A stretch of 39,292 bases of DNA, from contig JAFSYP010000006.1 in NCBI GenBank assembly GCA_017449935.1, positions 1 through 39,292 on the forward strand, read 5' to 3'. The notes beneath the pieces are model-generated. The model was given only the letters and a program-made list of their open reading frames with translations. It ran no database searches and had not been told where the DNA came from. The position numbers and the translations under genes were made by a program. Source of the stretch: Clostridia bacterium (GTDB lineage: Bacteria > Bacillota > Clostridia > Oscillospirales > Acutalibacteraceae). Below, piece by piece: positions 17,203-39,292 of the stretch; positions within the stretch are counted from its first letter, which is position 1, and every line of letters begins with the position of its first letter.

Positions 17203-17203
17203 T

Positions 17204-18091: not shown

Positions 18092-18129
18092 GATTGCCGT
18101 TCGGATTCTTTAAGAATGGTTTAAGAGCC

Positions 18130-18158: not shown

Positions 18159-18192
18159 AGTACAGCAATATGATGAATTTGGAGGAAAAAAC

Positions 18193-18957: not shown

Positions 18958-18992
18958 CGCGCCGCGAAAGCGTCAACCCATCATAAATACCG

Positions 18993-19029
18993 AAAACTGC
19001 CGAGGCCATGCGACCGCGGCAGTTTTTTT
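18993..19029 (+). terminator. Rho-independent terminator after the lipoprotein gene
   Basis: CTGCCG (18997-19002) pairs with CGGCAG (19017-19022), extended by AAA/TTT at the base, followed by seven T (19023-19029). It is A-rich on the left, so it may also work for the convergent LOG-family gene. Confidence 0.85.
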
Positions 19030-19046
19030 ATGTCTTTCTTTGGCTG

Positions 19047-24629: not shown

Positions 24630-26015
24630 GTGTCCGTTCGCTCGCGCGGCCGTTTGGAGATCACAACGGGACCGCTGCTATGGAATATTGTGCGTTTCGC
24701 AGTGCCGATCATCTTGTCGGGACTGCTTCAAATGCTGTTCAATATGGTCGACGCCGCTGTCGTCGGACGTTTCGGCAGTCCGACGGCGCTCGCTTCCGTC
24801 GGCTCGACCGCGTCGCTGACGCACCTTTTGGTCAATCTGTTTCTGGGACTGTCCGTCGGCGCGGGCGTGACGGTGGCGCAGGCGATCGGCGCCGAAGACA
24901 GAGACGGCGTGCGCCGCGCCGTGCGCACGTCGGCGACGCTGAGCCTGATCTGCGGCGCTGCGGTGGCGGCGGTCGGCGCGGTCTTTTCGGCGACCTTTCT
25001 GCGCTGGATGGGCTCGCCGTCGGAGATTCTGGACGGCGCGGCGACGTATATGCGCATCTATTTTCTCGGCATGCCCGCGATCATGCTATTCAATTTCGGC
25101 AGCTCGATCCTGCGCTCGATGGGCGACACGAAGCGGCCGCTGTATTTTCTGCTGTGCGCCGGCGCGGTGAACGCCGTGCTGAACCTGCTGCTCGTGATCG
25201 TCTTTCGCATGGACGTCGCGGGCGTGGCGCTGTCGACCGTGCTGTCCCAGTGCGGCGCGGCGGCGCTGGTGACGCTGTGCCTTATGCGCCTGCCGCATGA
25301 CGTGCGTCTGTCGCGGCAAAACGTCGGGATCGACCGCAAAAGCTTTTGGAAGATCGTACGCATCGGCGTACCGGCGGGGCTGCAGAGCTGTCTGTTTTCT
25401 TTCTCCAACGTCGTGATCCAGTCGTCGGTCAACGCGCTCGGCGCCGCCGCCGTGTCCGCCAACGCCGCGGTGACGACGCTGGACAATTTCGTATACGTCG
25501 CCATGAACGGCGTTTCGCAAAGCACGAACACCTTCTCCGGCCAGAACTACGGCGCGCGGCAGATGCAGCGCGTGCGGCGTACGGCGCTGGACGCCGTGCT
25601 CGTTACGGTGATCGTGGGGTGTGCGCTCGGTCTGTCGGAAGCGCTGTTCGGCGAAAAGCTGCTGCGGCTGTTCACGACCGATCCCGCTGTGATCGCCGCC
25701 GGGATGCAGCGGCTGGAGATCACGGCGACGACCTATTACTGGTGCGGCGTGATGGAGGCGCTGTCCGGCGTGCTGCGCGGGACGGGACGCTCCATCCTGC
25801 CTATGGGCGTGACGCTGCTGGGCGTCTGCGGTCTGCGGATCGCATGGGTTTACGCCGTGTTCCCGGTCCTGCCGTGTCTGGGTACGCTTTACTGGTCGTA
25901 TCCGTTTTCCTGGATTCTGACGACCGCCGTCCTGTTCGGGATGCTGCTGGCCGTGTTTGCAAAGGAGCGAAGAAAAGAACATGTCGATCCTGATCTGTCC
26001 GGTGTGCGGACGTGA
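24630..26015 (+). CDS. MATE-family multidrug/toxin exporter
   Basis: A 461-residue integral membrane antiporter with about 12 hydrophobic helices in two homologous halves. The N terminus (ITTGPLLWNIVRFAVPIILS) and LFNMVDAAVVGRF are typical MatE sequences, and FGSSILRSMGDTKRPLYF matches the conserved loop at the end of the first half. Substrate unknown. The start is taken as GTG at 24630, preceded by AAAGGAGGG. An in-frame ATG at 24594 overlaps the -10 box and cannot be on the transcript. It overlaps rlmA by 35 bases. Confidence 0.92.
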   Translation: MSVRSRGRLEITTGPLLWNIVRFAVPIILSGLLQMLFNMVDAAVVGRFGSPTALASVGSTASLTHLLVNLFLGLSVGAGVTVAQAIGAEDRDGVRRAVRTSATLSLICGAAVAAVGAVFSATFLRWMGSPSEILDGAATYMRIYFLGMPAIMLFNFGSSILRSMGDTKRPLYFLLCAGAVNAVLNLLLVIVFRMDVAGVALSTVLSQCGAAALVTLCLMRLPHDVRLSRQNVGIDRKSFWKIVRIGVPAGLQSCLFSFSNVVIQSSVNALGAAAVSANAAVTTLDNFVYVAMNGVSQSTNTFSGQNYGARQMQRVRRTALDAVLVTVIVGCALGLSEALFGEKLLRLFTTDPAVIAAGMQRLEITATTYYWCGVMEALSGVLRGTGRSILPMGVTLLGVCGLRIAWVYAVFPVLPCLGTLYWSYPFSWILTTAVLFGMLLAVFAKERRKEHVDPDLSGVRT

Positions 26016-26763
26016 CCTGACGCGCGCAGAGCGCAGCTTCGCGTGCGACGCGGGACACAGCTTCGATCTGTCGAAGGAGGGGTATCTCAATCTCCTTCTC
26101 CCGACGCAGCGCCGCAGCCGGCATCCCGGCGACGCGCCGGAGCTTTGCCGCGCGCGCCGCGCGTTCCTGTCGGCGGGGCATTACGCGCCGCTGCGCTCGT
26201 TCGTCGCCGCGCGTCTTTCGGGCGAAGTCGTTCTGGACGCGTGCTGCGGCGAGGGGTATTATACGTCCGCCGCGTCCGAACGCGGCTTTCGGACCTTCGG
26301 CTTCGACATCGCCAAGGATATGGTCCGTCTGGCGGCAAGGGCGGACAAGCGCACGCAGTATTTTGCCGCGGGACTGCACGCGATCCCCGTGCGCACAGGC
26401 TCTGTCGATGCGCTCATGCATCTGTTCGCGCCGCCGGCGGACGCGGAGCTGTCGCGCGTGCTGCGGCCGGGCGGCACGCTCATCCGGGTAATGCCGGGCG
26501 AGCGGCATCTGTGGGAGCTCAAGCAGGCGCTGTACGACACGCCGTATCTCAACCGCGAAACACCGCAGCCGTGCAGCCTGACGCCGGTGCGGCAGGAGCG
26601 TCTGCGCTATGATTTCGAGCTGTCCGGCGCCGAGGAGATCCTGGACCTGTTCCGCATGACGCCGTATTCCTACAAGACGTCCCGCGCGGGCGAGGAAAAG
26701 CTGCGCGCGCTGAAGCGTCTGCGCGTCACGGCGGATTTTCTTGTGCTGACTTACTGCAAATGA
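25981..26763 (+). CDS. 23S rRNA guanine-N1 methyltransferase (RlmA-like)
   Basis: A 260-residue methyltransferase. An N-terminal zinc finger, CPVCGRDLTRAERSFACDAGH, leads into SFDLSKEGYLNLLLP, the standard start of RlmA(I)/RlmA(II) enzymes. The SAM site is VVLDACCGEGYYTSA. Methylation of G745 or G748 of 23S rRNA is expected; the G748 type is linked to tylosin resistance, but the sequence alone does not decide between them. The ATG at 25981 lies inside the MATE gene after a GGAG-containing ribosome binding site, so expression is coupled. Confidence 0.88.
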   Translation: MSILICPVCGRDLTRAERSFACDAGHSFDLSKEGYLNLLLPTQRRSRHPGDAPELCRARRAFLSAGHYAPLRSFVAARLSGEVVLDACCGEGYYTSAASERGFRTFGFDIAKDMVRLAARADKRTQYFAAGLHAIPVRTGSVDALMHLFAPPADAELSRVLRPGGTLIRVMPGERHLWELKQALYDTPYLNRETPQPCSLTPVRQERLRYDFELSGAEEILDLFRMTPYSYKTSRAGEEKLRALKRLRVTADFLVLTYCK

Positions 26764-27011
26764 AAAACCGTGTTGAGAAGCACGAGCGAGATCGTGCCGG
26801 GCATCCCCAGAAGACCGACCGCGCCGAGCGTATAGGGATTGACGGCGACGGTGACGCCGGTGAGCGTGCCGAGCACGTTGACGGCCAGGAGCGAGACGAG
26901 GCCCTGCACGGCGGAGGACAGCACGCAGCGGATAAAGCGGCCGGTGCGCGCAAAGGCGATCAACACCGCGAGCGCGGCGGCGGCCAGCGCGAAATAAACG
27001 AAAAACAGCAT
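26751..27011 (-). CDS. BofA-like membrane protein (pro-sigma-K processing inhibitor family)
   Basis: An 86-residue, mostly hydrophobic protein with three helices. The C-terminal pattern SLLAVNVLGTLTGVTVAVNP, then GAVGLLGMPGTISLVLL matches the BofA family, which in Bacillus holds the SpoIVFB protease inactive until sigma-K is needed. It supports a spore-forming ancestry, although BofA-like proteins also occur outside classical sporulation. The 3' end overlaps rlmA by 13 bases in convergent orientation. Confidence 0.8.
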   Translation of the reverse strand: MLFFVYFALAAAALAVLIAFARTGRFIRCVLSSAVQGLVSLLAVNVLGTLTGVTVAVNPYTLGAVGLLGMPGTISLVLLNTVFHLQ

Positions 27012-27108
27012 CAGTATCCCTCCAAAAACACCTTGCTAAAATTATATAGTATTTTCCGGACAAATATGATACAATAACGAAAAGATTCCGAAAAAAAGGA
27101 GAAAGCAC

Positions 27109-28068
27109 ATGGAACCGGTAAAAATGATCCCCTATATTTCGTCCACCATCTGGGGCGGCAGACGGCTGATCGAGGAATACGGCGTGCGGACCGACAAGGA
27201 GAACGCGGCCGAGGCATGGGTGCTGTCCTGCCATCCGAACGGCTGCGGCGTGATCGCGGGCAGCGCGCTGGACGGCCGGACGCTGCGCAGCGTGTACGAG
27301 GAGGACCCTTCGATCTGCGGCACGCGCGGGGCGAAGTTCCGGGAGTTCCCGATCCTGATCAAATTCATCGACGCGCGGGACAACCTGTCGATCCAGGTGC
27401 ATCCCGACGAAGAATACGCCCGGCGTGTGGAGCACGGCGCGGGCAAGACGGAGTGCTGGTATATCCTGGACGCGGACGAGGGCGCGCAGCTGGCGCTGGG
27501 GTTCAAAAGGGCGATCGACCGCGAGACGTTCCGCGCGTCCATCGCGGACAATACGCTCATGGACTATGTGCAGAAGGTCGACGTACACAAAGGCGACTTC
27601 TTTTTCATCGAATCCGGCACGCTGCACGCGATCTGCAAGGGCGTGCTTCTGGCGGAAGTGCAGCAGAATTCCGACACGACCTACCGTGTCTATGACTATG
27701 ACCGCCGCGGGGCGGACGGCAAGCCGCGCGCGCTGCACGTGGACAAGGCGGTGGACGTGACGAATACGACGCCGTACACGCCGGTCGTGCCGTCCGAGGC
27801 GGACAAGGCGCGGTTCAACACGCCGCAGCGCACGCTTCTGACGTGCTGCGAGCTGTTTTCGGTCTGCCGCGTGGACTGCCGCGGCGAATATGCCGACGCC
27901 GTGACGGCGGAGAGCTTCGTGTCGCTGCTTGTGCTGGAGGGCAGCGGGACGTTCACATGCGGCAAAACGGCGTTCCCGCTCTGCAAGGGCGAGAGCGTCT
28001 TTATCCCGGCGGGCGCGGGCGACTATGCCGTGCGCGGGGAAATTGAACTGTTGGAGACCAGGATCTGA
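27109..28068 (+). CDS. manA: Mannose-6-phosphate isomerase, class I
   Basis: A 319-residue cupin-fold zinc enzyme interconverting mannose 6-phosphate and fructose 6-phosphate. Signature segments are YISSTIWGGRRLIEEYG, LSIQVHPDEEYAR (zinc ligands), KTECWYILDADEGA, and GTLHAICKGVLLAEVQQNSD with YRVYDYDR. Length fits the short Firmicutes type. RBS AAAGGAG is eight bases before the ATG. Its stop codon directly abuts the ABC-F start, so the two genes form a unit. Confidence 0.94.
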   Translation: MEPVKMIPYISSTIWGGRRLIEEYGVRTDKENAAEAWVLSCHPNGCGVIAGSALDGRTLRSVYEEDPSICGTRGAKFREFPILIKFIDARDNLSIQVHPDEEYARRVEHGAGKTECWYILDADEGAQLALGFKRAIDRETFRASIADNTLMDYVQKVDVHKGDFFFIESGTLHAICKGVLLAEVQQNSDTTYRVYDYDRRGADGKPRALHVDKAVDVTNTTPYTPVVPSEADKARFNTPQRTLLTCCELFSVCRVDCRGEYADAVTAESFVSLLVLEGSGTFTCGKTAFPLCKGESVFIPAGAGDYAVRGEIELLETRI

Positions 28069-29976
<1,908 letters not shown>

Positions 29977-30013
29977 ACGGCAATAACGCACGCCGACAAC
30001 GGCGCCCCCGCGC

Positions 30014-30038
30014 GTAGGGGCGGCAATCTGCCGCCCGC
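30014..30038 (+). repeat. REP hairpin, GTAG-headed (copy 1)
   Basis: GTAG followed by GGGCGGCA-ATC-TGCCGCCC, an 8-bp stem with a 3-base loop. Same element as the copies at 30079, 32147, 32341, 32524, 32572, 32692 and 35644. Confidence 0.9.
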
Positions 30039-30078
30039 AAAAACCGTAACATATCAACGATCTGCGCCGCTTGCACCC

Positions 30079-30103
30079 GTAGGGGCGGCAATCTGCCGCC
30101 CGC
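30079..30103 (+). repeat. REP hairpin, GTAG-headed (copy 2)
   Basis: CACCC precedes GTAG and the GGGCGGCA-ATC-TGCCGCCC hairpin. The shared CACCC lead is also found in copies 32524, 32572, 32692 and 35644. Confidence 0.9.
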
Positions 30104-30140
30104 AAAAACAACGCCGCGTCAAATTGACAAAATGTCCGGC

Positions 30141-30160
30141 GGCAAGCATGTATGCTTGCC
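30141..30160. repeat. Perfect inverted repeat, 9-bp arms
   Basis: GGCAAGCAT-GT-ATGCTTGCC in the gap between the ABC-F and GNAT genes. There is no T-run next to it, so it is not a typical terminator. It is probably another small repeat family. Confidence 0.6.
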
Positions 30161-30378
30161 CTGCAAACGGAAACAACCTGTCTCTGTACGCCCCCGCATC
30201 CATGCGGCTTTTTGTAAAGCCCACCCTCTTTACTCCGCCCGGAAACGCTTGATACACAAGACAAAACTCCCCCTTTAAATGCCTTGCCTGTAAAGGACGC
30301 CTCCGTTACAGGCGCGGCGGGGTGCAAAGGCGGGGCCTTAACAGAATTATTCTTCACAAGAACAAAGGAGTGTATACT

Positions 30379-30951
30379 ATGTCGATCACGGTAAGGTCAT
30401 ACAGGCAGTCGGACCGGGACGCGGTGGAGCTGATCTGCGTGGCGACGGCGGATTACCGCGTGCGGTCGATGTCGCGGCGGACGCTTTTGCTCAGGACGCA
30501 GTGCGACTACTATCTGGAATGCGAGCCGGAGAACTGCTTTGTCGCGGTCAAAACGGCGGACGACGGCAGCGAAAAGGTGATCGGTTATGCGCTGTGCGCG
30601 GCGGACTGCGAGACGTACGCGCGGCGGTATCTGGACAAATATCTGCCGAAGCTGCGCGAATACAGCAAGTTCAACGCGCGTCTGGCGCGTGCGGACGTGA
30701 TGCTGGCGGGGCAGTTTGCGGCATTTTTCCCGGCGCACATGCGTCTGCAGGTGCTGCGCGAGGAGCGCGGGCAGGGCGCGGGGGAGGCGCTGGTGCGTAC
30801 GCTGGCGGAGCATCTGACGGCGCAGCGCGGCAAGGGGATCGTTGTAATTCTGAATAAGAAAAATACTGAAGCCGGAGCGTTTTTCAAGCAGTGCGGTTTT
30901 TCGTTTTTGCGCAAGACGCCGGGCGGAATCGCCTATGGTTTGGATCTGTGA
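30379..30951 (+). CDS. GNAT-family N-acetyltransferase
   Basis: A 190-residue acetyl-CoA-dependent acetyltransferase. The pyrophosphate-binding motif is LREERGQGAGEALVRTLAEH near residue 135, followed by GIVVILNKKNTEAGAFFKQCGF, the usual C-terminal strand-helix. The N-terminal half (SYRQSDRDAVELICVATADY) resembles GNATs often annotated near O-GlcNAcase-like proteins. Substrate unknown. RBS AAAGGAG precedes the ATG. It is followed by a strong terminator at 31012-31056. Confidence 0.88.
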   Translation: MSITVRSYRQSDRDAVELICVATADYRVRSMSRRTLLLRTQCDYYLECEPENCFVAVKTADDGSEKVIGYALCAADCETYARRYLDKYLPKLREYSKFNARLARADVMLAGQFAAFFPAHMRLQVLREERGQGAGEALVRTLAEHLTAQRGKGIVVILNKKNTEAGAFFKQCGFSFLRKTPGGIAYGLDL

Positions 30952-31011
30952 CGGCGGCGGGAGAAAAACGGGCCAAATTGTTGTAAATAGGCAAACTGAA
31001 CAATTATATGA

Positions 31012-31056
31012 CGTCGGATTTGTGGAAAGTGTCCACATGTCCGACGCTTTTCTTTA
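31012..31056 (+). terminator. Rho-independent terminator after the GNAT gene
   Basis: CGTCGGA (31012-31018) pairs with TCCGACG (31040-31046), and inside it GTGGA (31022-31026) pairs with TCCAC (31032-31036). TTTTCTTT follows. It separates the housekeeping block from the accessory locus. Confidence 0.85.
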
Positions 31057-31085
31057 CAATTTCTTAAAATTTTTTCAAATCCATA

Positions 31086-31114
31086 TTGACAATTCGCCAA
31101 AGGGATGGTAAAGT
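31086..31114 (+). promoter_or_regulatory. Promoter of the EAL-like gene
   Basis: TTGACA (31086-31091), a 17-base spacer and TAAAGT (31109-31114). This leaves a leader of about 110 bases before the EAL-like start codon, long enough for post-transcriptional control. Confidence 0.75.
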
Positions 31115-31231
31115 GTAAGAGACTAAGAGTGTGTCATTATCTGTTATTGCGTGGCAAGTCGCGTGTGCGCGACACATATATATAGTATTGCGGATCGCGG
31201 ATCCGAATTCAGCTTGACGGGAGTGCCTGAG

Positions 31232-32020
31232 ATGGAAGAAAAAATGAACGCCGCGGCGAATACCCCGACCACGGAGCAGAAAAAAAGCTCCGGCTCCTCT
31301 GCGCGTGCGCTGCGCACGCTGGAGATGCGGTACCAGCCCGTGTTCGACGTGCATCTGAACATGGCGATCGACTTTCTGGTGACGCTGCGCATCAACGACC
31401 GCAAGATGGGCGTGCTGCTGCAGGACGCGTTCTTCCCCGTGGCGGAAAAGAGCAACCAGATCTGCGAGCTGAACAAGTGGACGGTCGAGGAAGGGTGCGA
31501 CGCGATCCTGCGCTGCCAGAAGCGCGAGGCGGACGTCAACCGTCTGATCGTCCCCATTTCCAAGAAATACCTCTCCAAGCCCTACTGCGTCAAGCAGCTC
31601 GTCAAGGTCGTCGAGAGCAAGGGCGTCGAGCCGGATAAATTTTGCTTTAACATTTCCGAGAGCATCTATGCTGCCGAGCAGGCGCAGGTCGCCGAGACGA
31701 TCAAGCAGCTGCGGGATTACGGCTTTGTGGTGTCCATCGACGATTTCGGCGTGGAGTACACCTCCCTGTCCCACCTCGGCATGTATAACGTCGACTACAT
31801 CGGCATCGACGGCAGTCTGCTGGACGACATTATGACCGAGGAGCGCGTCCAGAACCGGATGCAGGGCATCATCGAGTTCTGCAAGAAGATCGAGGCCCAG
31901 ACGCGCATCCACGGCGTCAATACGCCGGAGCAGGCCGCGCTGCTGCGCACGCTCGGCGCCGACCAGATGCTCGGCGATCTGTACGGCAAGCCCATCGCCG
32001 AACGGTCGATCAAGATCTGA
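31232..32020 (+). CDS. Degenerate EAL-domain protein, probably catalytically inactive
   Basis: A 262-residue cytosolic protein whose fold pattern matches the EAL cyclic-di-GMP phosphodiesterase domain: YQPVFDV at the start, FCFNISESIYAAE, SIDDFGVEYTSLSHL (canonical DDFGxGxSSL) and YIGIDGSLL. Catalytic residues are largely missing: the EAL glutamate region reads DFLVTLR, the KID lysine is replaced by Gly, the EGVE segment reads HGVN, and the final QG is LG. It should therefore be a binding or scaffold protein rather than an enzyme. There is no membrane segment and no GGDEF domain. The ATG at 31232 follows GGGAG. It has its own promoter and points toward the SipW/TasA-like locus. Confidence 0.8.
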   Translation: MEEKMNAAANTPTTEQKKSSGSSARALRTLEMRYQPVFDVHLNMAIDFLVTLRINDRKMGVLLQDAFFPVAEKSNQICELNKWTVEEGCDAILRCQKREADVNRLIVPISKKYLSKPYCVKQLVKVVESKGVEPDKFCFNISESIYAAEQAQVAETIKQLRDYGFVVSIDDFGVEYTSLSHLGMYNVDYIGIDGSLLDDIMTEERVQNRMQGIIEFCKKIEAQTRIHGVNTPEQAALLRTLGADQMLGDLYGKPIAERSIKI

Positions 32021-32035
32021 TCGGACGTTTCCGAA

Positions 32036-32527
32036 GTGACACGCCCAGATCGCAAGCCCAACCGTCTGCCGGACTATGACTACTCCCGGAACGGCACGTA
32101 TTTCATTACGGTCTGCGCCAAAGACAGACAGCCTTTGTTTTGGACCGTAGGGGCGGCAACCTGCCGCCCGCAAAATCCGGCAATCGGCCGCCCGGACGAA
32201 CGCCTTTCCGAAATCGGGCGACTGGTTGAAACGGCAATTCTTCAAATCCCGACGGTTTATTCCTTCGTTTCCTTGGATATCTTCTGTATTATGCCGGATC
32301 ATATCCATATGATCTTAACGCTGCATGCATCCGAACCGGACGGGCGGCCGATTGCCGCCCCTACGATCTCGACGATCGTCGGAAGCATGAAACGATGGGT
32401 GAGCATACAGGCAGGCGGAAGCGTTTGGCAGAAAGGCTTTTACGACCACGTGATCCGCGACGAACAGGATTTCCTGACGAAAGCGCAGTATATTGAAAAC
32501 AATCCCGTTCGCTTGCTGCACCCGTAG
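32036..32527 (+). CDS. REP-associated tyrosine transposase (RAYT, Y1 family), possibly 3'-truncated
   Basis: A 163-residue IS200-like HUH nuclease. NGTYFITVCAKDRQPLF is the typical start, IMPDHIHMIL carries the HUH histidines, and QYIENNPVR carries the catalytic tyrosine region. Start is GTG at 32036; no good ribosome binding site is seen. Two REP copies lie inside the frame, one forward at 32147 (encoding GAATCRPQ) and one inverted at 32341 (encoding GRPIAAPT). The stop codon TAG is part of the GTAG of the REP at 32524. Relatives usually continue a little after NNPV, so the REP may have clipped the C terminus. RAYTs bind and cut GTAG-headed REP hairpins, matching the surrounding repeats. Confidence 0.88.
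   Translation: MTRPDRKPNRLPDYDYSRNGTYFITVCAKDRQPLFWTVGAATCRPQNPAIGRPDERLSEIGRLVETAILQIPTVYSFVSLDIFCIMPDHIHMILTLHASEPDGRPIAAPTISTIVGSMKRWVSIQAGGSVWQKGFYDHVIRDEQDFLTKAQYIENNPVRLLHP
32147..32171 (+). repeat. REP hairpin inside the RAYT gene (copy 3)
   Basis: GTAG plus GGGCGGCA-ACC-TGCCGCCC, in frame within the transposase coding sequence. Confidence 0.9.
32341..32364 (-). repeat. REP hairpin, inverted, inside the RAYT gene (copy 4)
   Basis: Read on the minus strand, GTAG is followed by GGGCGGC-AATCG-GCCGCCC. It is the only copy on the minus strand and forms a head-to-head pair with the copy at 32147. Confidence 0.8.
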
Positions 32528-32547
32528 GGGCGGCAACCTGCCGCCCG
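32524..32547 (+). repeat. REP hairpin providing the RAYT stop codon (copy 5)
   Basis: CACCC-GTAG-GGGCGGCA-ACC-TGCCGCCC; bases 32525-32527 (TAG) are the transposase stop codon. Confidence 0.9.
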
Positions 32548-32571
32548 AAAGATACCCGGCGGCCCGCACCC

Positions 32572-32596
32572 GTAGGGGCGGCAACCTGCCGCCCGC
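32572..32596 (+). repeat. REP hairpin (copy 6)
   Basis: CACCC-GTAG-GGGCGGCA-ACC-TGCCGCCC, 24 bases after copy 5. Direct-repeat orientation. Confidence 0.9.
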
Positions 32597-32691
32597 ATTG
32601 AATCGGCATTGTACGGTGACGCGGCGGACGCGCAATGCGCGTACATACAAGGAATCCATTATATATCAACGCTCGGCGCCGTGCCTCACCC

Positions 32692-32716
32692 GTAGGGGCG
32701 GCAACCTGCCGCCCGC
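32692..32716 (+). repeat. REP hairpin (copy 7)
   Basis: CACCC-GTAG-GGGCGGCA-ACC-TGCCGCCC, between the RAYT and the membrane-anchored protein gene. The spacing to copy 6 (95 bases) differs from that between copies 5 and 6, so this is not a CRISPR array. Confidence 0.9.
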
Positions 32717-32787
32717 CAAATATCCCCCGCACGAAAACGAAATATCCCATACATTTTATTATATAAAAGCAAACGGAGTTGATCGAC

Positions 32788-33657
32788 TTGGCCAAGAAGA
32801 AGAAGGACGCCGCGCCCGAGGCGCAGAACGGCACGGTTGCCTCTCAGGGGGACAAAGGCCCCTACATTCCTGCATTGTCCATGGCGGATCAGAGCAAGAA
32901 GTACGACGTCAACACCACCGCGGAAAAGGTACGCAAGCGCGACTGGATGATCCGTATTATTGCGTTGATCCTGTTGATATTGCTGCTGATTCTCGGCATC
33001 GGGTACTGCAGCGTCTCGATCCTCAACAAAGCCGGCCGCTTTACCGTCAGCCTTGTGCCGAACGAGTACGGCATCCAGCTTGCGGAGTCGGAGGATTTTG
33101 ACCACCCGACGCTGAATCTTTCGGCAAGTCCCGTGGAGGACATGAACAACATCACGAAGGAGTGGCTCCTGAACAAGAACGGCGAGCTGGGCGACGACCC
33201 CGTATACGAGAGCTTTACGGCGTTGGATAAGGTCTGGGGCGAGCACAACGGCACCAACTACCTGGCCTACACGTTCGGCGTGCGCAACTCGAGCGCCGAT
33301 GAAAAGGACGTCGTCTCCTACCGCGTGTCCCTCAATCTGGAGAACCAGTACAAGGGCGCGGACGAGGCGGTCCGCGTGATGGTGTTCCGCAACGGCGTTC
33401 CGACGATCTATGCCAAGCCCCGTACGGACAACGGTAAGCTCGAGGAATTTGCCGCTGATAAGAGTTTCCTGGAAGACGACGTCGTCTTTGAAGACGTCCG
33501 CGCGGACTTCCAGATCGGCGAGGTCGACCGCTACACGGTGGTCATCTGGCTGGAAGGCGAAGATCCAGAATGTGTAAACAAGATCATGGGCGGAGAAGCA
33601 AAGTTTTCGATGCACTTTGAAGTCATCGGAGGCAACAGCTCCGCGGACGCCGGTTGA
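32788..33657 (+). CDS. Membrane-anchored extracytoplasmic protein of the SipW/TasA-like locus
   Basis: A 289-residue protein of unrecognised family. A basic N terminus (MAKKKKDAAPEAQNG) and about 54 cytoplasmic residues precede one transmembrane helix (about residues 55-77, IIALILLILLLILGIGYC), then an extracellular domain of about 210 residues. The end carries VVIWLEGEDPEC (W254, C262), the same signature as the two TasA-like proteins downstream, which suggests a common beta-sandwich fold. No TYAWF cleavage motif is present, so it may stay in the membrane as the base or anchor of a fibre (inference). The start is TTG at 32788, ten bases after GGAG; a TTG at 32779 is too close to that ribosome binding site. 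Confidence 0.75.
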   Translation: MAKKKKDAAPEAQNGTVASQGDKGPYIPALSMADQSKKYDVNTTAEKVRKRDWMIRIIALILLILLLILGIGYCSVSILNKAGRFTVSLVPNEYGIQLAESEDFDHPTLNLSASPVEDMNNITKEWLLNKNGELGDDPVYESFTALDKVWGEHNGTNYLAYTFGVRNSSADEKDVVSYRVSLNLENQYKGADEAVRVMVFRNGVPTIYAKPRTDNGKLEEFAADKSFLEDDVVFEDVRADFQIGEVDRYTVVIWLEGEDPECVNKIMGGEAKFSMHFEVIGGNSSADAG

Positions 33658-33752
33658 GCTTGGGGGAGACCGACCGACGGCTAAAGGGCGCAAGCCTTTG
33701 CCCATTATCCCATTACACTTGGATATAAAACTATTTTTTGGAGGAAAAAACA

Positions 33753-34568
33753 ATGAAAAAACGTTCTCTTGTTGCAGCTGTTGCGATGCTGATCGTTTCC
33801 GCGATCGTGCTCACCAGCTCCACCTACGCATGGTTCGTTGTTGGTACGCAGGCTCATGTGACCAACATCGCAGCGACCATCTCGACCGCCGCGTCCGGCG
33901 TTCAGGTCCGTGACTACGGCTCCACGCTCTCCTGGAGAAGCACGCTTGCTTGGGCTGATTTCTACAATCTGTCCGACACCGCAACCTTCCCGACCACGTT
34001 CTCGCCCGCGACCTGCTGGGCTGAGGGTGCAACCCCCCTGTTCCAGTGCAAGGCCGGCGCGTACAACTCCAGCATCGACGACCAGATCGACATCAGCAAT
34101 GCGACCGGCGCCGGCACGGAGTATGCGACTGTGAAGTTCTTCGTCCGCAGAATGGACGCGACGGGCTCCGTCACCCTGAAGCCTACGATCACTGTCCCGC
34201 AGAACGGTGAAGCGAACAAGGCGCTCAAGATGGCTGTTGCGTACCACAACGGTACGGCCAACCAGGGCGTTCTCGGCATCTACAGCGATGCGGACTACGA
34301 GGCGATCAAGACCAACGGCAACTACACCGACACCAATCAGGACCATTACATCAGCAGCGCTGATACCGGTTATGACAGCAGCAAGATGGCTGCTGTGGCC
34401 AGCACGAAGACCTTCGGCACCGACACCGTCACCCTGACGAACGTCAACACGACCGGTACCGCGTATGTCACGCTGTACATCTGGCTCGAGGGTAACGATC
34501 CCGATTGTACGAACGCGCTGAGCAACATGACCGCGACGTTCGGCATCGATCTTGAGGCTGCTTCTTAA
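33753..34568 (+). CDS. TasA/camelysin-like secreted protein with SipW-type signal peptide (first)
   Basis: A 271-residue protein. The signal peptide MKKRSLVAAVAMLIVSAIVL runs into TSSTYAWFVV; TYA-WF is the hallmark of SipW-cognate signal peptides, so cleavage after A26 is expected. The mature protein is rich in Thr, Ser, Ala and Asn, as in fibre-forming subunits. Near the end VTLYIWLEGNDPDC (W244, C252) is the shared signature. Two further cysteines (ATCWAEG, LFQCKAG) near residues 85-105 could form a disulphide. The GGAGGAAAAAAC ribosome binding site is very strong, and its codon use looks adapted to high expression, consistent with a major subunit (inference). It is followed by a stable hairpin at 34615 and then the SipW-like gene. 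Confidence 0.82.
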   Translation: MKKRSLVAAVAMLIVSAIVLTSSTYAWFVVGTQAHVTNIAATISTAASGVQVRDYGSTLSWRSTLAWADFYNLSDTATFPTTFSPATCWAEGATPLFQCKAGAYNSSIDDQIDISNATGAGTEYATVKFFVRRMDATGSVTLKPTITVPQNGEANKALKMAVAYHNGTANQGVLGIYSDADYEAIKTNGNYTDTNQDHYISSADTGYDSSKMAAVASTKTFGTDTVTLTNVNTTGTAYVTLYIWLEGNDPDCTNALSNMTATFGIDLEAAS

Positions 34569-34614
34569 TCGCAAGCGGAATCATTCGGCACACGTTTAAC
34601 CTTTAGTCCCTTTG

Positions 34615-34649
34615 GCTGTGCGCGGGGCGGTCCCCGCGCCGCGCACAGC
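34615..34649 (+). other. Long GC-rich hairpin after the first TasA-like gene
   Basis: GCTGTGCGCGG (34615-34625) pairs perfectly with CCGCGCACAGC (34639-34649). There is no T-run after it, so it is more likely an mRNA 3'-end stabiliser or partial terminator than a standard terminator. Confidence 0.7.
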
Positions 34650-34673
34650 GCGCAACACTTCTCCCCCCAAAAT

Positions 34674-34696
34674 GTAGAGGCGGTTGAAGCCGTCCT
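34674..34696 (+). repeat. Second type of GTAG-headed hairpin, forward
   Basis: GTAG followed by AGGCGGTT-GAA-GCCGTCCT, an imperfect stem. The head tetranucleotide matches the REPs, but the stem sequence differs. Confidence 0.5.
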
Positions 34697-34721
34697 AAAA
34701 AAGTGATTAGCTAAGCACAAA

Positions 34722-34745
34722 TAGGGCTGTTTGAACAGTCCCTAC
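34722..34745 (-). repeat. GTAG-headed hairpin, inverted
   Basis: On the minus strand GTAG is followed by a GGACTGTT-CAA-ACAGCCC imperfect stem. It faces the copy at 34674, giving an inverted pair. Confidence 0.5.
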
Positions 34746-34878
34746 ACGGTACCGTGCCAACCGGCACGGCCCGGCGGCACGGTATCGTTTGTGCGGCGCG
34801 CAAAGGAATGATTTGTACGCTGCGCCCCCGCAGCGCAGAAATGATCCCTTTACAGTAGTGAAAGACGGAGGGCAGTTC

Positions 34879-35805
34879 ATGAAAAAAGTATTGAATATCC
34901 TTGTCGACGTCCTGATCGTGATTGTAGTGGCGTTCGCGGTGCTGATGACCATAATGGCGGTCACGGCCTCCAAGAGCAAGAGCGGCATCCCGACCGTGTT
35001 CGGCTACGGACTGCTGTCCGTCCAGACCGACTCCATGGTCTCGCCCGAGGGCTTCTCGCCGGGCGACCTGATCATCGTGCATACGCTCGAGGACAAACAG
35101 TGCAACGAGCTGAAGATCGGCGACGTCGTGACGTACCAGCGTGTGTATGACAACGAGCCCTTCCTCGAATCGCACCGTATCGTGCCGAACACGCCGGAGG
35201 TCAACCCCTTCTATGCCGATATTGCAAACGAAGTCGTGGACGGCGTCTGGGTTCATGAAGGATACAATTACTATGTGACCATGGGCGACAACACGCCCGG
35301 TATCGACTTTACCCAGACCGGAAACAAGATTGATTATGCGTCCCACGAGAACATTGTCGGCAAGTGGACGGGGACAAAACTGCCCGGCGTCGGCAAGGCG
35401 CTCGATTTCCTGCGGACGCAGAGCGGCTTCATGCTTTGCGTGGTGCTGCCCGTCGCGGCGTTCTTCATCTATGAGCTGTACGTCTTCATCATGACGCTCA
35501 ACAGCAAGCAGAAGGAAAAGACGCTCGCCGAGGTCGCCGACAAGGAAGCTGAGCTCAAGCAGAAGGCGATCGAGGAGTTCCTCGCCCAGCAGCAGAAGGA
35601 CGGCGGCGAGGCCGCCGCGCCCGAAACCGCCCCCGCCGCACCCGTAGGGGCGGCAACCAGCCGCCCGGAGGATGAACCGGCAAAACCCGCGGAGGAACCC
35701 ACCGACTCCCCCGCCGCATCGTCCCCCGCCGACATCAGCGAGGAAGAAAAACAGCGCATCATCCAGGAGTACCTCGCCAAACAGTCCGGCGAGAAAAAGG
35801 AATAA
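34879..35805 (+). CDS. SipW-like signal peptidase I with long cytoplasmic tail (first)
   Basis: A 308-residue membrane protease of the ER/SipW type (Ser-His-Asp). An N-terminal transmembrane helix (about residues 8-29) is followed by SVQTDSM (nucleophile S52), ESHRIV (H99) and MGDNTPG (D137), then a second helix (about 183-206). SipW itself ends near there; this protein has about 100 extra cytoplasmic residues with IEEFLAQQQ (231-239) and IIQEYLAKQ (294-302). Residues about 255-263 (PVGAATSRP) are encoded by an in-frame REP copy (35644-35668). It should cleave the TYA-WF signal of the adjacent TasA-like proteins. The ATG at 34879 follows GGAGGG; the upstream in-frame ATG at 34789 lies in the repeats. 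Confidence 0.88.
   Translation: MKKVLNILVDVLIVIVVAFAVLMTIMAVTASKSKSGIPTVFGYGLLSVQTDSMVSPEGFSPGDLIIVHTLEDKQCNELKIGDVVTYQRVYDNEPFLESHRIVPNTPEVNPFYADIANEVVDGVWVHEGYNYYVTMGDNTPGIDFTQTGNKIDYASHENIVGKWTGTKLPGVGKALDFLRTQSGFMLCVVLPVAAFFIYELYVFIMTLNSKQKEKTLAEVADKEAELKQKAIEEFLAQQQKDGGEAAAPETAPAAPVGAATSRPEDEPAKPAEEPTDSPAASSPADISEEEKQRIIQEYLAKQSGEKKE
35644..35668 (+). repeat. REP hairpin inside the first SipW-like gene (copy 8)
   Basis: CACCC-GTAG-GGGCGGC-AACCA-GCCGCCC, in frame in the Pro/Ala-rich tail of the signal peptidase. Reading frame and a lineage-typical linker composition are kept. Confidence 0.88.
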
Positions 35806-35886
35806 CCGGGCCTTCCTCTTATATACTCCGAACGGGAACACCCAAAGCCTTCCCCTATAAGGAAAGCCCAAATGGGAACAGCAATT

Positions 35887-36019
35887 GCCTTCCCCTCCAG
35901 GGGAAGGTGCCCCGAAGGGGCGGATGAGGTGGAAAACGCCGACCAAGCATAGAATCCGGAAGCCCTCCACCTCATCAGTCACGCCTTGCGGCGTGCCAGC
36001 TTCCCCTCCAAGGGAAGCC
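35887..36019. repeat. MITE-like inverted-repeat element
   Basis: Outer arms GCCTTCCCCTCCAGGGGAAGG (given as 35887-35907) and the matching right arm 36000-36019 each form a small palindrome of CTTCCCCT/AGGGGAAG. Inner arms GATGAGGTGG (35923-35932) and CCACCTCATC (35967-35976) are perfect inverted repeats. Related CTTCCCCT fragments lie at about 35849-35871 and 36039-36060. Elements of this pattern are abundant in intergenic DNA of Oscillospiraceae; no transposase is encoded in it. Confidence 0.75.
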
Positions 36020-36084
36020 CGAGAAGGAACATCTCAAGCCTTCCCCTCAAGGAGAAGCCCAAACAGTCCCCCCGCAAAACCTTG

Positions 36085-36115
36085 ATTTATAACCTGTCTC
36101 CGACAGATTATAAAT
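36085..36115. promoter_or_regulatory. 31-bp near-perfect palindrome before the second TasA-like gene
   Basis: ATTTATAACCTGTC (36085-36098) and GACAGATTATAAAT (36102-36115) are inverted repeats with one mismatch and a 3-base centre. It lies 39 bases before the start codon, with no T-run, which fits a dimeric-regulator operator; an mRNA hairpin is the alternative. Confidence 0.6.
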
Positions 36116-36154
36116 GACGGCTTTGTCAAAAATACAGAAAAAGAGGTAATCACT

Positions 36155-37129
36155 ATGGCAAAACGCAAACTTGGTGCATCGGTCATCATCCTTTGCATCG
36201 CCACGGTTACGCTGATCTCAGGTACCTACGCCTGGTTCCTGAGCGGCGGCGCGGCGAACCTGTTTGACGTCGGCTTCGACGTCATCGAGTCGAGCGGCAA
36301 CATCCTCCTGCAAGGTGACGCCGGCACGGCCAGCGGTACCTTGTCCGAGGACGGCAATTGGGGTACTTTGCTGGAGCGCAAGGACTTTGTGCTGAAGGAC
36401 TTCATTGTCGACGGCGGCTCCTACAAGCCCGTATCCGGCAGCGCTTTCACGCAGGCGAGCGCGAAGTTCATCCTTGTCAACCTTCGCAACGATGCTTTTG
36501 AGTCGATGGATGCTCCGTCCAAGGCGACGCTGTCCAACGAAGAGCTGGACCAGATCTGCTACAACGATTTCACCTTCAAGGTCAAATCCGGAGGAGAAGA
36601 AATCGTCGGCACTTCCGCAAACGGCGCTTATATGACCGTCGATTTTATCGGCAGAGAGTATAAGCGTGACTCTCAAGGCAACAAGACAGACGAGCTTGTG
36701 GATAGCGTTGAGGCGAGCGCAGCCAAAGCAGCCCGTGTTGCTGTCACATTCGACGGCCAGACGACAATTTATTCCATAGATGGTGAGAGTTATAAGGCTG
36801 TAACCAGCAATTTTGTTAGCGGTATCACCGATACCCCGGATTCCAGCAATCAGAAAGACCAGATCATTACGGAATCTGACACCGGTTCCGGAGCAGCGGC
36901 TCTTAAGACGCCGGCAGAGATGGGCGTTGTAAGTTACAATTCTTTGGGTTCATCCGAGAATCTTACCAAGATCTTCCTCGGCAACATTCCGAACACCGAC
37001 AGCGCCGGCAAAGAGGTTACAGTGCGTGTCTGGCTCGAAGGTAACGATAAGGACTGCGTCGATATCGCCGGCAGGTCCATCGCGGGCAAGAACCTGCTGA
37101 CCAAGATCAACTTCGGCATCGTCGAGTAA
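36155..37129 (+). CDS. TasA/camelysin-like secreted protein with SipW-type signal peptide (second)
   Basis: A 324-residue protein. The signal MAKRKLGASVIILCIATVTL continues ISGTYAWFLS, again the TYA-WF SipW-cognate motif (cleavage after A26). VTVRVWLEGNDKDC (W293, C301) is the shared C-terminal signature. The middle (about residues 165-270, bases 36650-36960) is richer in A and T and in rarer codons than the two ends, as if a variable domain were inserted between conserved ends. It may be a minor or tip subunit next to the more strongly expressed first TasA-like protein (inference). The GAGG ribosome binding site is weaker than that of the first paralogue, and the palindrome at 36085 lies upstream. 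Confidence 0.82.
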   Translation: MAKRKLGASVIILCIATVTLISGTYAWFLSGGAANLFDVGFDVIESSGNILLQGDAGTASGTLSEDGNWGTLLERKDFVLKDFIVDGGSYKPVSGSAFTQASAKFILVNLRNDAFESMDAPSKATLSNEELDQICYNDFTFKVKSGGEEIVGTSANGAYMTVDFIGREYKRDSQGNKTDELVDSVEASAAKAARVAVTFDGQTTIYSIDGESYKAVTSNFVSGITDTPDSSNQKDQIITESDTGSGAAALKTPAEMGVVSYNSLGSSENLTKIFLGNIPNTDSAGKEVTVRVWLEGNDKDCVDIAGRSIAGKNLLTKINFGIVE

Positions 37130-37186
37130 TTGATCCCAAGCATAATACATACTGTTATGCACCATTTTTGACAAAACCCTGTATTG

Positions 37187-37213
37187 GCGGGGCGGACGCC
37201 ATATCCGCCCCGC
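37187..37213 (+). other. GC-rich hairpin after the second TasA-like gene
   Basis: GCGGGGCGGA (37187-37196) pairs perfectly with TCCGCCCCGC (37204-37213), 7-base loop. There is no T-run. It mirrors the hairpin after the first TasA-like gene in position and in lacking a terminator tail. Confidence 0.65.
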
Positions 37214-37225
37214 ACCGGGTGTTAT

Positions 37226-37274
37226 AATGCGGTGATTTATGGGCTGTTCCGGTCAACATATAAATGACCGCATT
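37226..37274. promoter_or_regulatory. Long inverted repeat upstream of the second SipW-like gene
   Basis: AATGCGGTGATTTAT (37226-37240) and ATAAATGACCGCATT (37260-37274) are inverted repeats with one mismatch around a 19-base centre. A TATAAT at 37223-37228 overlaps the left arm, so it could be an operator on a -10 box or a 5' leader hairpin. The inner ATTTAT/ATAAAT ends are shared with the palindrome at 36085. Confidence 0.55.
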
Positions 37275-37302
37275 GGGTAAATTATGTTTCAGAGGAACTG
37301 CA

Positions 37303-38250
37303 ATGGATAAATCGAAAGAAAAAGGCCTGGTTTCGACCATAGCCAATATCGTCTCTTCGATCGTTCTGGTTTTTGCAATTCTGATCACTGTACTTGTTAT
37401 CACGTCGATGAAATCGTCGTCCGGCGTCGCGCATCTGTTCGGCTACTCCGTGCTGTCCGTGCAAAGCGACTCCATGGAGCCGACCTTCAAGGAGAACGAC
37501 CTGATCGTCATTCGCATGACCAAGCCGAGCGAGCGCTTTAAAAAAGGCGACGTCGTGTCGTTCTTCACCTACGACAACACCGGCACGCGTTTCATCAACA
37601 GCCACAGGATCGTGGAGGTCATGCACGGCGAGACACGGGACCGCTATGTGACAAAGGGCGATAATGCGGAATCTGCCGACCACAAGAAGCTGTACAGCTC
37701 GAGCATTATCGGCGTCTATGTCGACAAGAAGATCTCCGGCCTCGGCGCGATCGTGGATTTCATCCACTCGCCGACCGGCGTTCTGCTGTGCGTCGTCATC
37801 CCGTCCGCCATCATCATCATCGCGCAGGTGGTCAGTTATGCCAACTCTGCCTCCAGACGCAAAAAGCAGCTGCTGCTTGAGGCGGAGGAGCGCGCCAGAA
37901 TGGAGCGCATCCAGTTGGTGAACGACGTGATGGCCGCGCAGCGCGGCGCGATGGGCGGGACGTTTGTGCCCGGCGTGCAGCTCGACCCGAATGTCCGTGT
38001 CGACGACGCCGACAAGCAGCGCGTGATCCAGGAGTATCTGCAAAGGCAGGCGCAGGAAGAAGCCAAAAAACAGGCGATCATTGAAGAATACCTGCAAAAA
38101 CAGAAAGAAGCCGAAGCCGCTGCCAAGGAGGAAGCCGAGGCCGCCAAGATCAAGGCGATCATCGCGGAATTCTTGTCGCAGCAGCAAAAAGCAGGCGCGG
38201 ACGCGCCCGCGAACGAAAGCCCTTCCGGACCGGAAGACAGTGAGGGCTGA
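37303..38250 (+). CDS. SipW-like signal peptidase I with coiled-coil cytoplasmic tail (second)
   Basis: A 315-residue protease paralogous to the one at 34879. The N-terminal helix is about residues 14-35, SVQSDSMEP holds nucleophile S57, NSHRIVEV holds H101, and TKGDNAES holds D120. The second helix is about 159-180. The tail of about 130 residues is predicted to be coiled coil and holds VIQEYLQRQ (241-249), IIEEYLQKQ (259-267) and IIAEFLSQQ (286-294), three copies of the motif also found in the first peptidase. Two peptidases in one locus may each serve one TasA-like partner. The ATG at 37303 follows AGAGGAACTGCA. Confidence 0.88.
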   Translation: MDKSKEKGLVSTIANIVSSIVLVFAILITVLVITSMKSSSGVAHLFGYSVLSVQSDSMEPTFKENDLIVIRMTKPSERFKKGDVVSFFTYDNTGTRFINSHRIVEVMHGETRDRYVTKGDNAESADHKKLYSSSIIGVYVDKKISGLGAIVDFIHSPTGVLLCVVIPSAIIIIAQVVSYANSASRRKKQLLLEAEERARMERIQLVNDVMAAQRGAMGGTFVPGVQLDPNVRVDDADKQRVIQEYLQRQAQEEAKKQAIIEEYLQKQKEAEAAAKEEAEAAKIKAIIAEFLSQQQKAGADAPANESPSGPEDSEG

Positions 38251-38322
38251 GTATCTTCGGATATTTATATATAGTATGTAAACAAATCCATAGCAAAATA
38301 CAAGGAAAAGGTGGACTTGAAT

Positions 38323-39292
38323 ATGGGTGCTATCGTAAAATTCATGGGTGATTTCTTGAACCAGTTCGTCGTGAAAGGGTTCTGGGGTATTCTCAAGGGT
38401 ATTGGCCTCGGTATTGCCAATATCTTCAATATCCCGCGTTATATCACCATTTTCAAGAATTATTCTTCCGAGCTCGGCGCCGGCGGGATCGTTCTTGCCA
38501 TCCTCGCGATCATTCTCGTTCTGGCCGTTCTGGCCGGCATCATCTTCCTGATCGTGCTCCTGTGCAAGAAGTACATCCGCTTCCGCAAGACGGTCGTGGA
38601 TCAGGAAGAGCTGCTCAATGAGGTCGCCACGCTCAACCGCGAGGTTATCAAGCTGACGCTCGAAAAGGAAAAGATCCTTGCCATGAAGGTTTCGCAGCTC
38701 GGTCTTCGTCCGGGCGAGAGCCCCTATCTCGAAGCGCCCGACGGCTCCGCAGGCGAAGCCGCTGCCGAAGGCGGCGAAGAGGGCGCCGAAGGCGATATGC
38801 TCGATGAAGATTACAGCCGTTTCTACAAGCTCACCCAGGTCGACCTGGAGCTGGCGGATTACCAGCCGCCCGTTTACAACAACGACATCACCCTTCCCGA
38901 AATCGTCGAAATGTACAGAAACTTCGCGGCCTCCCGCATGGGCCTGTACTACGAACCCAATACCATCCGCCTGTTCCTTGCTGCATTCGCTTCCACGCGA
39001 CTGATCATCCTGCAAGGTATTTCCGGTACAGGTAAAACTTCACTTCCGTATTCCTTCGGTAAGTTCCTGCAGAACGACGCGACCATCGCTTCCGTGCAGC
39101 CGTCGTGGCGTGACCGTACCGAGCTGTTCGGCTACTTCAACGAATTCACCAAGCGCTTCAACGAGACCGAAGTGCTCAAGAAAATGTACGAAGCTACATA
39201 TAAAGAAGACATCTTCCTGACCATCCTCGACGAAATGAACATCGCTCGTGTGGAGTACTACTTCGCCGAGATGCTGTCCATCCTCGAAATGC
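38323..39292 (+). CDS. Membrane-anchored AAA+ ATPase of AAA_5/McrB type (cut by window end)
   Basis: The first 323 codons of a gene that runs off the window. Residues 1-50 contain amphipathic segments (FVVKGFWGILKGIGLG). Residues about 53-80 are one strong transmembrane helix (LAILAIILVLAVLAGIIFLI). A short coiled coil (95-122) and an acidic Ala/Glu linker (139-160) follow. Then comes the AAA+ module: Walker A GISGTGKTS (232-240), ASVQPSWRDRTELFGYFN (256-272), and Walker B ILDEMNIARVEYYFAEML, a pattern typical of McrB-like AAA_5 ATPases. McrB proteins of restriction systems are soluble, so a membrane-tethered form beside SipW peptidases is unusual. The ATG at 38323 follows AAGGTGG. Confidence 0.85.
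   Translation, partial: MGAIVKFMGDFLNQFVVKGFWGILKGIGLGIANIFNIPRYITIFKNYSSELGAGGIVLAILAIILVLAVLAGIIFLIVLLCKKYIRFRKTVVDQEELLNEVATLNREVIKLTLEKEKILAMKVSQLGLRPGESPYLEAPDGSAGEAAAEGGEEGAEGDMLDEDYSRFYKLTQVDLELADYQPPVYNNDITLPEIVEMYRNFAASRMGLYYEPNTIRLFLAAFASTRLIILQGISGTGKTSLPYSFGKFLQNDATIASVQPSWRDRTELFGYFNEFTKRFNETEVLKKMYEATYKEDIFLTILDEMNIARVEYYFAEMLSILEM

Follow-up and report, generated by a model that had tools for sequence, protein, structure and literature searches.

The window is the whole stretch of DNA analysed here, 39,292 nucleotides that make up the entire contig C107 of genome G000. An ORF check found all six plus-strand genes that a sequence-only reading had proposed as one cluster, with nothing unrelated between them, and the gene caller likewise places no extra gene there; two of the gaps exceed 300 bases. 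The six-gene unit is therefore real but longer than claimed, as it opens upstream with an EAL-like gene and runs past the contig end at 39292, which cuts the AAA+ gene. The downstream extension proposed in that reading was found on contig C121 of the window's own genome, where the unit resumes and the AAA+ gene is completed. This gene starts at GTG 38311 or ATG 38323.

31232..32020, + strand: EAL-like protein with altered catalytic motifs (Pfam EAL, E 3.3e-46); opens the conserved unit
32788..33657, + strand: membrane-anchored extracellular protein with W-x-E-G-x-D-x-x-C signature (ORF, signature)
33753..34568, + strand: exported TYAWF protein (SipW-type signal peptide), also bearing the W-x-E-G-x-D-x-x-C signature (ORF, motifs)
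34879..35805, + strand: signal peptidase 1 of SipW type; two IxEYLxxQ-like motifs in its cytosolic tail (profiles, catalytic columns)
36155..37129, + strand: second exported TYAWF protein (SipW-type signal peptide) (ORF, motif)
37303..38250, + strand: signal peptidase 2 of SipW type; three IxEYLxxQ-like motifs in its cytosolic tail (profiles, catalytic columns)
38323..39292, + strand: McrB-family AAA+ protein (predicted GTPase, NxD) with N-terminal membrane helix; incomplete at contig end
C121:28865-29095: C-terminal 77 residues of the AAA+ protein
C121:26875-28818: partner protein (DUF2357-type, McrC N-domain), followed by the giant gene

Besides the giant gene, contig C121 has three additional genes for peptidases and encodes other exported proteins. 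The fourth peptidase gene, on C121 (L123:11880-12383), lacks the catalytic His as judged by eye. Giant proteins of 4425-5805 aa occur in five genus members; Glug-type repeats, considered for the giant protein, were unconfirmed by Pfam over its first 1730 residues and were dropped.

Peptidases, cargo, and the EAL-like protein

In the alignment, the catalytic columns of both window peptidases read Ser, His rather than Lys, and Asp, in agreement with their earlier description as Ser-His-Asp enzymes. Among 126 aligned peptidases, Ser and His were each present in 121 and both in 119, and Asp occupied column 118 in 100 and column 124 in 109. Peptidase 1 matched NF046067 (E 8.3e-18) and TIGR02228 (51.2 bits) below both cut-offs; peptidase 2 matched NF046067 at E 3e-34, also below cut-off, and TIGR02228 at 73 bits, where the cut-off of 51.85 is exceeded. 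NF046067 is the SipW equivalog with a cut-off of 190 bits, which the window peptidases (64.6 and 118.3 bits) do not reach and which no protein exceeded in any of 60 genomes.

As noted from the sequence, the anchored protein and the TYAWF proteins have W-x-E-G-x-D-x-x-C in common; no SipW-type cleavage motif was seen in the anchored protein (32788-33657). We take TYAWF to be a SipW-type signal-peptide motif, and this was the sole basis for calling the exported proteins TasA-like. That label was not borne out. The three window cargo proteins have no Pfam or NCBIfam match that counts, the one sub-threshold match being to flagellin (E 0.015), and PF12389 (TasA/camelysin) matches no protein in the window's genome. 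Only G039 and G056 of the 12 AAA-bearing genomes match PF12389, on contigs other than that of the AAA+ gene. Relatives of the cargo gave scattered sub-threshold matches, including TapA-type TIGR04087 (2/23) and TIGR04088 (1/23), and a profile of the anchored protein had no match below E 0.2 in the PDB. Cargo in other loci includes proteins of BspA-type LRR (E 2.2e-49) and M26_N (E 2e-10) families.

The EAL-like gene holds an equal position in relatives. Leu and His replace the expected glutamates of EAL and AEGVE in the window protein, and strict EAL-type motifs are missing in all 35 EAL-like partners. Across 36 aligned sequences, Glu is kept in the EAL column in 12, in the AEGVE column in 2, and in both in none. 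These substitutions suggest that the EAL-like partners are likely inactive, and we go no further than likely because some sequences retain one of the two glutamates.

Conservation of the operon

Gene order was compared in loci L043-L122, the best 80 of at least 495 confirmed loci, which are related to each other. SipW is present in 79 of the 80 and the DUF2357 gene in 76; in the one locus without SipW (L078), the sequence begins 46 bases ahead of the AAA+ gene. SipW lies directly upstream of the AAA+ gene in 66/77 loci, and DUF2357 is the next gene after it in 71/76 and at most two genes away in 76/76. All 54 well-flanked loci, defined by at least three genes on each side of the AAA+ gene, have SipW within six genes upstream or seven downstream and the two genes on each side on the same strand; a SipW-type signal peptide was found by regex in 53. 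New genomes with the same AAA+ class gave 11/11 loci with DUF2357 as the next gene and SipW nearby. In contrast, SipW was found with none of 13 related McrBs outside the family and at none of five short-AAA loci in new genomes. A sister class lacks SipW although it has DUF2357, the membrane helix, and a gene encoding >1000 aa. Since the short AAA+ class has a helix and no SipW, the helix alone was rejected as a marker of SipW linkage.

The proposed linkage holds because the layout recurs and SipW is absent near related McrBs outside the family: the AAA+ protein belongs to a single conserved unit together with SipW-type peptidases and proteins that bear SipW signals. What recurs is SipW-AAA-DUF2357; the exact six genes with two substrate-peptidase pairs are not general, many loci having one pair. 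It had also been suggested that an McrC neighborhood would make the linkage a matter of chance. The AAA+ gene does adjoin an McrC-like DUF2357 gene, but does so within the SipW operon, and therefore the two neighborhoods are not alternatives. Moreover, 4 of 77 DUF2357 proteins join DUF2357, a coiled coil, and SipW in one polypeptide. An unrelated AAA+ gene that merely happens to sit next to a SipW cluster is thus next to untenable, being refuted by conserved order, gene fusions, and controls without SipW.

The locus keeps its neighbors, wholly or partly, in all six AAA-bearing genus members and in G024; from their sequences we take these to be ManA and ABC-F, together with a GNAT protein assigned by Pfam. 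In the same six genomes, 30 of 31 SipW matches fall inside the operon stretch (some genes match twice).

The cytosolic tail motif IxEYLxxQ was found in 45/77 upstream peptidases versus 0/24 SipW from loci without AAA+, using a relaxed pattern loosened after the data had been seen. Control tails are shorter (mean 26 vs 74 residues), and the motif is in 0/7 controls with tails of at least 40. It is not a universal feature, occurring in 4/10 held-out loci with upstream SipW and missing in some lineages.

The McrB-like protein and its DUF2357 partner

An AAA+ profile built from 11 relatives matched McrB chains only among PDB entries at E up to 0.1 (best 5e-8). The motif G-[TS]-x-N-x-D-[DE] was found in 80/80 loci, and N367 N368 D369 D370 are invariant in alignment A1 of the AAA+ proteins. 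Read one residue further, N-N-D-D fits NxxD too; alignment with GTVNMDE-type relatives favors NxD. The NTPase residues are intact, and a transmembrane-like stretch is present in all 78 complete proteins. The earlier description as a transmembrane McrB-type AAA+ ATPase thus stands for the McrB family and the membrane helix, and "ATPase" is better replaced by predicted GTPase of the McrB NxD clade, according to the signature described by Bell et al. (PMC11090510).

The N-terminal domain contains a probable coiled coil, judged by eye from heptads, and may be homologous to FtsB, the matches being weak. Bell et al. called the corresponding CoCoPALM domain FtsB-like (PMC11090510). Such an N-terminus might put the complex at the division site, with the job of positioning the fiber machinery, and Staphylococcus offers a precedent in PcdA (PMC10602043). 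However, every match to FtsL types is under cut-off (E 0.017, 0.049, 0.069), and PcdA, whose Walker A is degraded and which lacks an McrC-like partner in the account cited (PMC10602043), differs in this from the AAA+ protein here. We regard a division-site role as decidedly improbable.

Of 40 partner proteins in one alignment, 22 match Pfam DUF2357, from which the name is taken. The window genome's own copy, 90% identical to that of G002, and its nearest relatives have no Pfam match and are named after more distantly related proteins in that alignment. The stretch after DUF2357 is >50% K/R/E/Q/A in 54/71 proteins. When the PDB was searched with a profile of the DUF2357 alignment, the listed matches started no earlier than profile position 320, within the charged tail, and we set them aside as low complexity. 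One of the DUF2357-SipW fusions is from Ruminococcus albus KH2T6, in which Pfam recognizes DUF2357 together with the S26 and S24 peptidase families. The KH2T6 record bears no metagenome-bin label.

The AAA+ protein matches the PADLOC candidate-defense profile PDC-M26A (E 1.2e-39). Together with its McrB ancestry and with its nearest named relatives, the CoCoNuTs, which are predicted defense systems with a nuclease (PD-(D/E)xK, HEPN or other) in or beside the McrC homologue (PMC11090510), this could point to anti-phage defense, in which McrB/DUF2357 would sense infection and the peptidases or surface proteins would be effectors or a barrier. Three DUF2357 proteins checked against PADLOC models gave no match, however, and a scan of 40 DUF2357 proteins themselves had no nuclease among the best 25 of 61 families listed; the window genome's own copy likewise has none. 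Full-protein Pfam scans of L021, L026, L029, L030, the own copy, and the R. albus protein found no McrC endonuclease domain. A few DUF2357 proteins have almost no tail, and the stable neighbors of the locus speak against a variable island. Defense is accordingly quite unlikely.

Relation to known systems and a proposed role

The operon had been proposed as a new system, but the association of McrB, coiled-coil McrC, and signal peptidase was already named CoCoPALM in one paragraph by Bell et al. (2024), who considered the peptidases likely pilus assembly factors and deferred the class to a later paper (PMC11090510). The components in that paragraph agree with ours: an NxD McrB-like GTPase with a transmembrane and, probably also here, coiled-coil N-domain, a coiled-coil McrC homologue, and signal peptidase genes. 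The word SipW is absent from the main text (PMC11090510), and the best literature matches listed gave no paper on a link between McrB/DUF2357 and SipW besides this eLife paper and its preprint. What is added here to the main text of Bell et al. is that the peptidases are of SipW type, together with the cargo, the giant protein, the EAL-like partner, the fusion of DUF2357 with SipW, and the motif in the SipW tails.

The Bacillus subtilis tapA-sipW-tasA operon, in the account cited, also places a SipW-type peptidase beside its presumed substrates and pairs an anchored with a released protein, but has three genes without AAA+ or DUF2357 (PMC9674648); the substrates here have no PF12389 match. Since B. 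subtilis SipW-dependent fibers form without an AAA+ gene, processing in itself can proceed without such a motor. With McrBC type IV restriction the operon shares an McrB-family AAA+ protein and DUF2357, the McrC N-domain; it differs in that no nuclease was found in the DUF2357 families listed, an N-terminal membrane helix replaces the DNA-reading domain, and exported-protein genes lie around it. PcdA of Staphylococcus aureus is likewise an McrB-family AAA+ protein co-opted to a cell-envelope process, albeit with EVE domains (PMC10602043).

We infer, with a probability of roughly 60%, that the window covers the 5' half of an operon of CoCoPALM type. In it, an McrB-like GTPase of restriction origin and a DUF2357 protein, with no nuclease detected, would have been recruited to the cytosolic side of the membrane to organize SipW-type peptidases that process surface proteins. 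The AAA+ protein may form a ring at the membrane, where DUF2357 would stimulate nucleotide hydrolysis as McrC does for McrB. The DUF2357 tail, or a fused peptidase, and the cytosolic SipW-tail motifs could tether the peptidases to this ring. The peptidase active site lies outside the cell and the AAA+ protein inside, so any coupling must cross the membrane. Nucleotide turnover might cluster or gate the peptidases such that TYAWF subunits are cut and released beside the uncleaved anchored protein, a putative fiber base, with the giant protein perhaps displayed together with the fiber. The EAL-like protein may tune the system as a c-di-GMP or protein sensor. It is possible, though we hold this step only tentatively, that an McrC domain free of nuclease, bound to SipW and in Ruminococcus fused with it, activates the GTPase ring, which would gate or power fiber release and assembly from the cytosolic side of the membrane.

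The same membrane AAA+ protein with its conserved active site could instead be a chaperone-like machine for membrane remodeling or extraction that, with DUF2357, clears stalled or uncleaved preproteins from SipW, pulling on the cytosolic tail motifs in quality control and not assembly. Unfolding would be conjectural, and DUF2357 is known from McrBC as an NTPase activator and not as an unfolding adaptor, which makes this reading unlikely.

If organization of SipW-type peptidases by the GTPase and DUF2357 is right, a motor family known from cutting foreign DNA would have been rebuilt to process surface proteins in Clostridia of the gut and rumen, R. albus KH2T6 among them, providing an energy-coupled signal peptidase complex and a role for nuclease-less McrB/DUF2357 genes. 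Should the ring also gate or power release, a restriction motor would have become one that drives proteolysis coupled to export. With the fusion and the tail motif, what was a genomic association now suggests concrete, testable protein contacts.

Layout of the unit

All six ORFs that the sequence-only reading had described, encoding an anchored protein, two TYAWF proteins, two SipW-type peptidases (SipW1 and SipW2) and a McrB-type AAA+ protein, are present in the window, which is a complete contig and ends within the AAA+ gene. Extending the unit past that gene, as the same reading proposed, recovered the remainder on C121, a second contig of the same genome that codes for the AAA+ protein's C-terminal 77 residues; ~120 residues are missing in the unassembled gap between the contigs. 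The DUF2357-type partner protein on C121 is 90% identical to the copy in genome G002.

Features of the unit beside the six ORFs
31232-32020: EAL-like gene, upstream of the six ORFs, part of the unit in relatives
32036-32527: IS200/RAYT-like transposase ORF between the EAL-like and anchor genes (weak, E 0.0016, below cut-off)
C121, in order after the AAA+ end: DUF2357-type protein; giant gene; SipW-signal protein; two peptidase genes; candidate exported protein; fifth peptidase; two candidate exported proteins; two small membrane proteins

In the window the EAL-like gene is split from the remaining unit by the weak IS200-like ORF and four of seven REP-like repeats; the EAL-to-anchor gap in G002 is just ~60 bases. 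The repeats (core GTAGGGGCGGCAACCTGCCGCCCG) lie at 30000-35674, one of them within the SipW1 gene. A 1518-aa minus-strand ORF (25801-30357), antisense to ABC-F-like and ManA-like genes, was rejected by a codon-usage gene caller and is most likely spurious. In another genus member, contig C76 of G005 (locus L124) stops directly after SipW2, near the window contig's break, so incomplete assembly may explain why such MAGs seem to lack the AAA+ gene.

Linkage across genomes

The AAA+ gene was found in 12 of 60 genomes surveyed (own genome included), always with a SipW within ~1.5 kb, and our tally gave some SipW in 26 of the 48 genomes without it. Of 31 SipW matches in the six genus members that carry the AAA+ gene, 30 fell inside the operon stretch. 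A public-genome scan confirmed at least 495 AAA+ relatives, the best 80 of which were used for locus counts; carriers among the relatives listed were mainly rumen and gut Clostridia, with some Bacilli and Christensenellaceae, and included Ruminococcus albus KH2T6. Some SipW was present in 79 of these 80 loci and DUF2357 in 76, the misses lying at contig or locus edges. SipW was immediately upstream of the AAA+ gene in 66/77 loci, and DUF2357 was the next gene after it in 71/76 and at most two genes off in all 76. The 54 loci with at least three genes on each side all had SipW, with the two genes to either side on one strand, and 53 had a SipW-type signal peptide.

A second set of 197 genomes, sampled separately from the order, yielded 22 AAA+ carriers; five already used and two with contigs matching earlier loci were excluded, leaving 15 genomes (16 regions). 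Co-occurrence, on which the sequence-only reading had staked the link, held here, with SipW and DUF2357 in 11/11 loci of the same AAA+ class. SipW was absent from 5/5 held-out loci whose AAA+ genes belong to a short class, in part arranged in tandem, and 13 more distant NxD McrBs had SipW in none and DUF2357 in five. The short membrane sister class (L233-L237, from G592, G557, G504, G570 and G531) has no SipW in view; a DUF2357 gene is flanked by two short-class AAA+ genes in L234-L236, a gene for a protein >1000 aa is nearby in four of the five loci, and G531 holds both classes.

Component proteins

A profile of 11 AAA+ relatives matched only McrB in the PDB at E up to 0.1 (E 5e-8, residues 206-413). 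Walker A, Walker B and the N-N-D-D sensor were invariant across these relatives, and the NxD[DE] form was present in 80/80 loci. The partner matched Pfam DUF2357, the McrC N-domain, in 22/40 family members (L026, E 1.6e-13); the own-genome and nearest copies score below that model and are named by their common alignment with Pfam-matching members. Its tail is charged in most copies (>50% K/R/E/Q/A in 54/71). In L068, L070 and L118 the C-terminus looks globular by eye rather than coiled coil, and may resemble a DegV-type fold. Two small conserved genes follow DUF2357 in the Ruminococcus loci L093, L102 and L105, one for a protein of ~150 aa that has a membrane helix, the other for a 74-75 aa coiled coil (by eye); in L221 and L225 a 75-76 aa protein is coded after the SipW gene.

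Physical linkage is indicated by single chains that join DUF2357 to a coiled coil and a SipW peptidase in 4/77 DUF2357 proteins, all from Ruminococcus-titled loci (peptidase part, E 4e-40 to 6e-43 against our own profile); Pfam detects both domains in the L102 fusion. A repeated I-x-E-Y-L-x-x-Q motif occurs in the SipW tails of 45/77 upstream and 6/47 downstream peptidases, with 0.2 on average (maximum 3) in shuffled upstream tails. SipW from loci without AAA+ had it in 0/24, these control tails being shorter (mean 26 vs 74 residues; 0/7 in controls of at least 40). A relaxed pattern, picked after viewing the data, covers 64/77 upstream peptidases. The window's two peptidases together carry five copies. 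Only 4/10 held-out loci have the motif, which thus marks part of the family.

Across 126 aligned peptidases, Ser and His were each retained in 121 (both in 119) and Asp in 100 or 109, depending on the column; the peptidases score under the B. subtilis SipW equivalog cut-off. Pfam and NCBIfam back the C121 peptidases, two of three reaching the TIGR02228 cut-off. The third (11880-12383 of L123, the C121 stretch), one of the operon's five peptidase genes, is a weaker match that by eye lacks the catalytic His, and so may have no activity of its own or may pair with the active ones. The His is seemingly absent too from its G002 counterpart.

W-x-E-G-x-D-x-x-C is common to the anchored and secreted proteins, which match no TasA or camelysin family. 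Downstream of the AAA+ gene, L057 codes for a BspA-type leucine-rich-repeat protein (15679-19572; LRR_5, E 2.2e-49) whose signal peptide is of the SipW type. None of 35 EAL-like proteins had a strict ExLxR or AEGVE motif; in alignment the first-motif Glu was kept in 12/36, and none had Glu at both places. A GGDEF-EAL protein lies at the opposite end in G039 and G055.

Relation to CoCoPALM and proposed function

The unit had been proposed as a new system, a claim overtaken by print: one paragraph of Bell et al. 2024 (PMC11090510) names CoCoPALM and defers the class to a later paper. The core of the unit equals that class as worded there. Because the kind is already in print, the unit belongs to a known but uncharacterised kind. 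Judged by title, Bell et al. 2024 and the preprint of that work were the only publications in our literature search to use CoCoPALM in this sense. Our searches gave no published account of the peptidases as SipW-type, of the cargo proteins, of a fusion between DUF2357 and SipW, of the motif in the tails or of an EAL-like partner, and the figures or supplements of PMC11090510 may show some of these.

Sequence features support a membrane location and NTPase competence for the AAA+/DUF2357 system, as well as its association with peptidases and exported proteins; fibre formation, the use of GTP, and force or gating are inferred. Quality control at SipW sites is one main rival. The other, a defence system, would fit the McrB ancestry and a match to one candidate-defence profile, PDC-M26A, but no nuclease was seen in family scans of the DUF2357 partners (for 40 members, among 25 of 61 families listed), the three partner proteins tested had no PADLOC match, and the chromosomal place is stable within the genus. 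Most likely, a McrB-like ring with a DUF2357 activator, its nuclease lost, is the organiser or gate of SipW-type peptidases, which would free surface subunits next to the anchored base protein, together with giant surface proteins.
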